In this document: positions 38,161 through 50,001 of the stretch, one piece after another
Position numbering within the stretch: the stretch's first letter is position 1
Layout of the letters: every line of letters begins with the position of its first letter
Assembly (NCBI GenBank): GCA_964035545.1
Contig: OZ037767.1
Location: 23,541,128-23,605,127, forward strand
Length of the DNA: 64,000 bases
Direction of reading: 5' to 3'
Source of the DNA: Bugula neritina
Lineage: Eukaryota > Bryozoa > Gymnolaemata > Cheilostomatida > Bugulidae
The notes under the pieces: generated by a model
What the model was told of the DNA's origin: nothing
The model's input: only the letters and a program-made list of their open reading frames with translations
The model's database searches: none
Program-made: the position numbers and the translations under genes

Positions 38161-41100
38161 ATGATAGCTAAACTGCAGATATTTTGTGCAATTTGGATTA
38201 TATGTGCCCGGTGTACTGGAGCATACTTTGTCAACATGTGAGTACAGAATTTACTATTATTATAAAATGAGAAGTCATTTCAATGTATTGCTTACAGGGA
38301 GCATGAAAGGATGGCTATATTTGTTATAGCCAAAGTATTGTAAATATGTAGTACATGTGAGGATTGGGAGTTTTCTCATCTGACAGATGGGCGAATGAGT
38401 CATCTGACGGATAACTCATCTCTCATCTGTCAGGTGTCGGTGATTCATTTTCTCACTTGTCAGGTGATTCATCACTCATGTTGTACTAAAATTTACTTCA
38501 CGTGCATATAAAACATCTCACTCTAGCAGTCTGTATGCACATAGTGTCATACATACAAATCAAAGTCTAAAAGTCGATTACAATTACATATCACAATCTG
38601 CTGAATGCAAGAGTGCTTCAAGCTTGTTTTGTTTGTTTATGGTAGAGAAACAAAATCAAGTTTTTTACTAACAGTTATTTACTCTTTGCTATTGCTATAT
38701 TATGTCTGTGAGTTTGTGAGCATCATGGAAGCAGAACTCTGGTTTCTCTGTAGTTTGAGTAAGCATTTGCCATTACAAATCTGCCTCAGCTGTGTATTTC
38801 TCTCTCAATAAATGATGTTTAAAAAAACTAATACATAAGTGAGTAAGATTAGTTTATTTGCTCCTTCATTGAGATTTTTTGCCGCAGGCATCCTGATGTG
38901 GAGAAACTACAAAAGGATTATGGACTTTTTGATCTCCAATCTGTTGATTTGTGCCAAAAAGCTCTTAATTGCAGCCGAAATCTTACAAACAATCAAATTA
39001 TAAGAATTCAAGAAGATAGATATCAGCCTGGTTCTTATTTTCTAATGTATTTCGGGTTTATACTGAAATACACACCCGGAGAGCCTATGGAACTGTTTCT
39101 TGGTCATCCAGATCAACAACAAATATACAAATATCAAACTGGAAATTCTTTAGTGGCTGAAGCTTCTATGATTTTAGATATGGTACAATATAATAGGACA
39201 AAGTATGCACTTAGTGACAACTTGAATAACTGTGTGAAAGAGTACGACTCCGAGACTGACATGTTTACCCCTCTCATTGGTGCTTGTGCCTCAGCCAGCA
39301 CTCCTATTGGACGTCTTTCTTCTGACCAAGATATACCTGGTCTCTCTAACTTCCTGCAAGGAGTTCGTGATATTGAATTGGTGGAATTTGACAACTACTT
39401 TATTCTCTGTGATGACGACTATGGTCAGATCTTTACCTATGATGTGAGCACAGGTCGAGTAAAGCTCTTTCTTCAGAAGGCAGACGAATTCACCATCTCC
39501 CGTCCTACATTCTTGCTGTTGGATACACAGCAAAAACATGTCTATGTAGCTCACAGCACTGGATTATCAGAAGTAGAGTTACTGAGTCGTAAAGTAACAG
39601 CTCTAATTGTTGAGCCTACCTGGCACACACCACTTGAGTCACTCTCATGGCTCATCTCTAATGAAGTTTTAGTGGCTACCAACCCACAGGGACAGTCACT
39701 AGTACTTATAGATCTGAAAAGAGGACTTCACATGCCCGTGTGTGCTGGTAAGATAACTCTAATGTGTTTTGGCAGGCGATCTACATTAATAGCTGTCACT
39801 TTGATTTTAATCAATAGACAATATAAATAAACCTTCATTTATTTGAATTGCCTACAATAAAATTATAAGTAGTATTTAATATGAAATGACCTGGCTTTTT
39901 GTCATGCTAGTTGTAAAGGTCTACTGCAAATTCGACTCAAAACTGTGAATATGATTTAGTCAATGGTAGATCACCTGGTGTAATTTATTATTTTATTTAA
40001 AAGTAAATAACTGAAAAACAGTTTTTGATTACTACTACATCTATGTATATGGATAAATAAATATTCAATTTTAATGAAATTACTAGCCCGTAAGGATAAA
40101 TTAATTTTTTCAGTTATATAAGCTTCCTGTACCATCTTATTAATGTCAGACGACATCACCTTTCTAATCAATTGTTATTGTAATATTTTATGTTCTAGTG
40201 AAAGGAGCAGAATACGAGAATGCTACGGAGACTGGACCAATAGGAAGTTGTAAGCTGAGTCACCCGCAGGCAGTTTGTGTGACCAATGACACTATGTATG
40301 TTGTGGCAAATAGCGAATCCATTTCAACACAACCAGGAAACAATTTATTTGAGATGAAAGTTTACGAATGGCCATGTCCCCATTGCCCCGTAGAGCTTTC
40401 TCTCGCTAACTTGAAAATAAATAACTTAAATTACTCATCATACCCTCCCAAAGTAGTTGAATTCATTGTTGAGGACCAATATGTTCCGGGACAATTCTAC
40501 TATAACCGTGACTCTGTAATACTCAAGTCAACTGCAGACGGCAAAGTTGAACATTTTGTGGGAAGATATTTTGACGACTTCACTACTAGATACAAACCTG
40601 GAAATTCTACTACTGCTGAATTCTCTCGGCATATTTTAGGTTTGGCCCAATCTGATCTAGCAACCTTCTTTATCGCTGACTATCGGAATAATTGTGTCAG
40701 AAAGTTTGATTTACAGAGCGACTATGTTAGTCAGTTCATTGGCACATGCCGAAAAGACGACAATTCTGAAACCCTTTTACCGGGACACTTGTATTCACCA
40801 GATTATGACTTCCTTTCTGGCGTCATGCAGATCTTGTATCTGAAACAACGGGGTTGTCTGCTCATGATTGATCTACACGAATACATAACTGTGTATAGCT
40901 TTGCTACAGGAAATGTGTCATTACTTAGTGGAGAGACTTCGCGGCTTCCTGTTCAACTGCCACGAGGAATGTTGGCTAACAGTGATGAGTCTCAGTTGTA
41001 TGTGACTGAACGGTTCCAACACTTGTCAAAGATAGATCTGGAGACTTATGAAGTCACGTTGCTAATTGGGCAAACAGCGAATCCTTTCGCTACTGGGAAA

Positions 41101-50001: not shown

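Follow-up and report, generated by a model that had tools for sequence, protein, structure and literature searches.

Can a Met-type stalk and kinase stand beneath a propeller that is unrelated to Sema? This question is raised by gene A of the bryozoan Bugula neritina, which lies at positions 38161-50001 (+) of the 64,000-nucleotide stretch of DNA analysed here (the window). In the usual view, Met is a plexin-derived receptor that binds its ligand by the Sema head. The product of gene A is very probably a real bryozoan single-pass receptor tyrosine kinase of another make, in which the head, made up of a pair of NHL-type propellers plus a sushi domain, is carried on a stalk of three IPT domains before a Met-like kinase, and which would represent a separate Met-like lineage that has been multiplied in tandem and would work in a Met-like manner. 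A search of the Creative Commons-licensed papers in PubMed Central for NHL together with receptor tyrosine kinases gave no description of the order NHL-NHL-sushi-IPT-kinase, in agreement with the initial annotation of this DNA, whose author knew of no named family of this kind. The window corresponds to C3:23541128-23605127 of the searched B. neritina genome (295 contigs, 215.85 Mb; C1, C2, C3, C4 and C8 are its contig labels). The assembly, GCA_964035545.1, is presented as the chromosome-scale bryozoan assembly tzBugNeri2.1 in the available part of PMC11480708.

Gene A consists of 19 exons, every intron is of the GT-AG type, and the single open frame of 1453 amino acids (aa) is unbroken across 18 introns (Table 1). 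A spliced aligner that was given the hand-made model as query returned identical exons. Three further copies (B, G and H; the cluster copies are lettered A to H), situated on either strand up to about 107 kb downstream, possess the identical module order. The 19 exon starts of gene A recur 14 times in B, 13 times in G and 14 times in H, and of the recurring exons 14, 12 and 13, respectively, are as long as in A or differ in length by whole codons. Moreover, protein P0005 of Watersipora subatra is collinear with the gene A product nearly end to end (37% identity), and P0001, a gene model from another B. neritina assembly, runs on in one protein from the part encoded at the end of exon 3 to the kinase. 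Since the module order of B, G and H, the collinearity of P0005 and the join in P0001 agree, gene A is regarded as a single gene. In comparisons among B, G and H, both propellers and the kinase are under purifying selection.

The head is composed of two units that are homologous to each other and about 300 aa long (exon 2 versus exon 3: 27% identity, E = 1e-18), as opposed to one unit of about 500 aa in Sema. Solved NHL domains rank first both by profile, where the propeller profile reached 1.5e-21, and by the predicted fold of the propeller region (mean predicted local distance difference test, pLDDT, 66.4). The NHL repeat signature is present, eight of 15 propellers matched Pfam NHL at E ≤ 0.1, and a profile of four ectodomains found NHLRC2 and SOQ1 for the propeller part. 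These results point to two NHL-type propellers, probably with six blades each. The propeller fold and the sequence signature are also found in SOQ1, NHLRC2, teneurin and the sensor of mycobacterial PknD, which combines an NHL-type sensor with a kinase as gene A does, but is a bacterial Ser/Thr kinase; to our knowledge, none of these four occurs in one protein with IPTs and a tyrosine kinase. That the N-terminus is not an ordinary Sema domain, as had been proposed initially, was borne out by the domain search, in which gene A had no Pfam Sema match at E ≤ 1 and no Pfam PSI match, the position of PSI being occupied by the sushi domain. No Sema chain is among the 50 matches listed in the VIA list, a re-examination of the Foldseek hits, which is no proof of absence. 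Among the Pfam matches shown for the 120 entries listed (of 5849 matches), NHL does not occur.

The sushi domain has four cysteines, was matched in four of four ectodomains at E ≤ 0.1, and the ectodomain profile found CR2 for this part (5.1e-24); by Pfam, the domain is below the cut-off in P0005 and above it in P0019, also of W. subatra. The same profile found the Met stalk (7mo7, Met residues 621-908) at 6.5e-12. A predicted model of P0001 (14 aligned sequences, mean pLDDT 64.5; sushi part poor) gives three beta-strand stretches at the expected IPT positions, a long helix and the kinase. In gene A, three IPTs and a single membrane helix precede a kinase (Pfam E = 1.1e-85) with all catalytic motifs and the Met/RON-like strings VVLPYM and DYY that had already been noticed; neither P0019 nor the lamprey protein P0032 has the exact DYY string. 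Among solved structures, human Met is the leading relative for the stalk and the best single-kinase match (297 bits), ahead of RON (262) and TAM (231).

Gene A thus shares with Met and RON (Sema-PSI-IPT-transmembrane helix-kinase) the IPT stalk, the one membrane helix and the kinase type. It differs from them in having NHL-NHL-sushi for Sema-PSI, in the placement of its kinase outside the Sema-Met clade and in the tail. Met carries a C-terminal bidentate docking site of the YVxV type, whereas no Y[VIL]x[VN] string follows the kinase in A, G and P0005; there are two such strings in P0019, none in lamprey P0032, and YVNV in Potamilus P0042. Because neither Sema nor PSI was matched, gene A is not classed as Met, although a Met-like working is inferred for it. 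The Met-LP proteins of lophotrochozoans likewise have an unusual, IPT-containing ectodomain in front of a Met-like kinase, but according to the available part of PMC6374515, where Met and Met-LP are defined, the ectodomain of Met-LP is that of a complete plexin, Sema and PSI included, while gene A has three IPTs and no match to Sema or PSI. The survey in that paper, as far as its available text describes it, used Sema words and a Sema sequence and would therefore miss an NHL-headed receptor; Bryozoa are not mentioned in this part of the paper.

The initial annotation had further proposed that one propeller took the place of the other, and such an exchange of Sema-PSI for NHL-NHL-sushi in the bryozoan Met itself would explain why stalk and kinase are of the Met type. 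As stated, this was not supported. A Sema-PSI-IPT-kinase gene persists in B. neritina at C4:9480651-9492160 (-) (L044, L046, L047; modelled against P0042). An earlier assumption that this species has no Sema-Met, made when the three first Sema matches had no listed kinase adjoining, was abandoned when this gene was found. It has TIG matches in three stretches (86.8 bits), PSI at 21-22 bits (cut-off 23.1) and Pfam Sema at 13.9 bits (cut-off 23.7), and one plain sequence search with its Sema region found plexin-A2 and Met structures at 1e-22.

A tree was calculated from 50 kinase domains, hand-picked for spread from 124 (74 left out), and the C4 gene (51 rows). The kinase of gene A falls inside a Met-like group of 40 rows (root split 85/72), as expected from the initial annotation, but not inside the Sema-Met clade. 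The NHL receptors form one clade (99/95), which groups at 92/88 with Sema-less laminin- and GCC2-type kinases, namely W. subatra P0012 and P0050 and Owenia P0040, proteins with TIG domains, laminin/EGF or GCC2 heads and no propeller family among the Pfam matches shown. The C4 gene, on a long branch, belongs to the Sema-Met clade (99/94), where Lingula is its sister (92/96). Pfam Sema is found in 13 of the 24 rows of this clade and none is shown in 11, among them P0027 with Ig domains. In approximately unbiased (AU) tests, with clades chosen after the first tree was seen, a grouping of the NHL receptors with the nine lophotrochozoan rows of the Sema clade (Sema shown in four) was rejected (p = 1.5e-6). 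Groupings with all 24 Sema-clade rows without the laminin types (p = 0.246) or with the C4 gene alone (p = 0.111) were not, so that a deeper exchange is compatible with the tree; nor was a single group of all the bryozoan rows that the tree contained at that stage (p = 0.181). A lineage apart from Sema-Met is therefore favoured by the kinase tree without being proven, and a plain in-place swap is unlikely, since Sema-Met persists in the genome.

Very improbable is a chimera of gene models, in which an NHL-sushi membrane protein gene would have been wrongly fused to an adjoining Met-like kinase gene. In its favour, the join in gene A is predicted by gene models, the cluster includes two copies (C and D) that have one propeller and no kinase match, and elsewhere in the genome there are propeller genes with no kinase in sight. 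Against this, four copies distributed over both strands share one module order, the frame stays intact through all introns, and the matching parts are joined in P0005, P0019 and P0001; the four-copy order together with the models P0001 and P0005 led us to reject it. It is barely credible that an extremely diverged Sema domain merely resembling NHL forms the head, and this reading was rejected as well. Both folds are beta-propellers before IPT domains, Pfam NHL scores low when single sequences are searched, and a missing Pfam Sema match proves little when even the C4 gene stays below the cut-off; but solved NHL domains come first by profile and fold, the C4 Sema region readily finds Sema structures by plain sequence search, and two homologous units are present instead of one.

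Several points weigh against the reading of gene A as an NHL-headed receptor of a separate Met-like lineage. Its structure is predicted from the genome and from gene models, exon 1 was not found in B, G and H, and the splicing of IPT2 in copy B is doubtful. Pfam NHL scores on gene A alone are 18.0-19.6 bits (cut-off 20), exon 2 alone has no single-sequence Pfam NHL match, and P0005 has none at E ≤ 0.1; the propeller model was built from four aligned sequences, and its residues 1-83 are poor. Pfam sushi reaches 18.2 bits in gene A (cut-off 20.7). A two-kinase EGFR construct outranks Met, by adding up two matches, and the TAM kinases were left out of the tree, Met versus TAM being decided by bit scores. 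Finally, the NHL receptors are weakly linked to the Sema-less kinases (92/88), and two AU tests did not reject a placement with Sema-clade rows.

In Met, the IPT stalk bears the head, and dimerisation and phosphorylation of paired loop tyrosines activate the kinase. NHL domains of teneurins act in cell contact. By analogy, the NHL head of gene A might bind a ligand or a partner surface protein or propeller, the IPT stalk would transmit dimerisation, and trans-phosphorylation of the DYY loop would switch the kinase on. A Met-type stalk and kinase beneath an unrelated propeller, with Sema-Met kept in the same animal, makes the contributions of the head and of stalk and kinase to the Met mechanism testable. 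It also means that Sema-based surveys can overlook Met-like receptors, and it provides a receptor family that is defined and expanded, in a colonial phylum with little-studied cell signalling.

The cluster extends from copy A to at least C3:23709508, the site of another propeller pair. Copies C and D (L010, L015; about C3:23619250-23632000) have one propeller, sushi and IPT each, with no kinase match between them; copy C has an in-frame stop in an aligned exon, and copies E and F are fragments. The dS values (synonymous divergence) of A versus B, G and H are above 1 or saturated in the tested parts, with the exception of IPT1 (0.19-0.20). At the DNA level, 42883-43410 (the IPT1 exons and their intron) shares 83-87% identity with B, G and H, and 46725-46962 (exon 14 and some intron) is 92-96% identical to paralogs. 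Positions 38998-39288 (part of propeller 1) are 91% identical to H, and B and G are 78-80% identical over a longer stretch. The introns adjoining these tracts do not match between paralogs. Because high-identity tracts and a low IPT1 dS occur amid dissimilar flanks, these three tracts bear the mark of gene conversion.

Outside the cluster, 12 NHL-type propeller matches were found, which are partly clustered (L033-L037, L039-L041 and L043 at C8:7.61-9.84 Mb; in addition L032, L038 and L042). Next to four of them (L033, L035, L037, L043), an open frame reads as a Thr-rich stalk, a membrane helix and a short tail. One could imagine, although we consider it quite improbable, that the cluster is a recognition array. 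In this picture, gene conversion keeps the tandem NHL-headed Met-like receptors partly alike, kinase-less copies go with them, and the receptors would bind membrane proteins with NHL heads, for example those encoded on C8, that are exposed by adjacent cells or zooids or by tissue bearing symbionts; NHL-NHL contact would then elicit a Met-type signal, for instance in colony self-recognition.

Table 1. Exons of gene A and the neighbouring copy B (positions in the window)
Feature	Position	Strand	Content
Exon 1	38161..38237	+	Start codon, signal-peptide-like N-terminus (judged by eye)
Exon 2	38888..39747	+	NHL-type propeller 1, aa 26-313; homologous to exon 3
Exon 3	40199..41239	+	Probable last blade of propeller 1, five blades of NHL-type propeller 2
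Exon 4	41512..41694	+	Probable last blade of propeller 2 (resembles start of exon 3)
Exon 5	42266..42450	+	Sushi/CCP domain, Cys 724, 752, 767, 780
Exons 6-7 with intron between	42885..43401	+	IPT1; within a gene-conversion tract
Exons 8-10	43744..44841	+	IPT2, moderate confidence in predicted model; exon 8/9 joint least certain of the gene model
Exons 11-12	45289..46216	+	IPT3, transmembrane helix within aa 1061-1097
Exons 13-18	46425..49104	+	Juxtamembrane part, Met-like tyrosine kinase (Pfam aa 1138-1393; DYY aa 1291)
Exon 19	49927..50001	+	C-terminal tail, stop codon
Paralog B	52228..64000, on to ~69689 past the window	-	Module order as in A

Two other open frames of the window had no Pfam match at E ≤ 0.01, one of 516 aa at 14951-16501 (+) and one of 117 aa with a signal-like start at 27013-27366 (-).

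By sequence, the family of gene A includes the database entries P0005 ('uncharacterized protein') and P0019 ('hepatocyte growth factor receptor-like') of W. subatra and P0001 ('MET') of B. neritina; compared by these entries, P0019 has a single propeller and P0001 lacks the N-terminus. A sequence search with the ectodomain matched P0001 only. A search with the ectodomain alignment found only P0005 among 7995 scored candidates and missed P0019, which was partly in the query, so that the absence of NHL-headed receptors from other phyla is not demonstrated. Five Watersipora Met-like proteins are among the matches listed, of which P0005 and P0019 have NHL heads and the other three have none; P0012 and P0050 exceed the cut-off for EGF_laminin, and P0014 stays below it. 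In B. neritina, EGF-laminin and TIG exons at C2:14108000-14117999 (L045) lie upstream of a kinase match at C2:14122187, and this locus probably encodes a laminin-type Met-like receptor. P0001 is 85% identical to gene A over the matched part of the ectodomain and 92% in the kinase, and this divergence perhaps indicates that the species name covers several types. The available part of PMC6374515 reports no Met in Ecdysozoa; Sema-TIG-kinase proteins were found in two spiders, a mite and a horseshoe crab (P0024, P0043, P0045, P0077), three of the four being named hepatocyte growth factor receptor or receptor-like.
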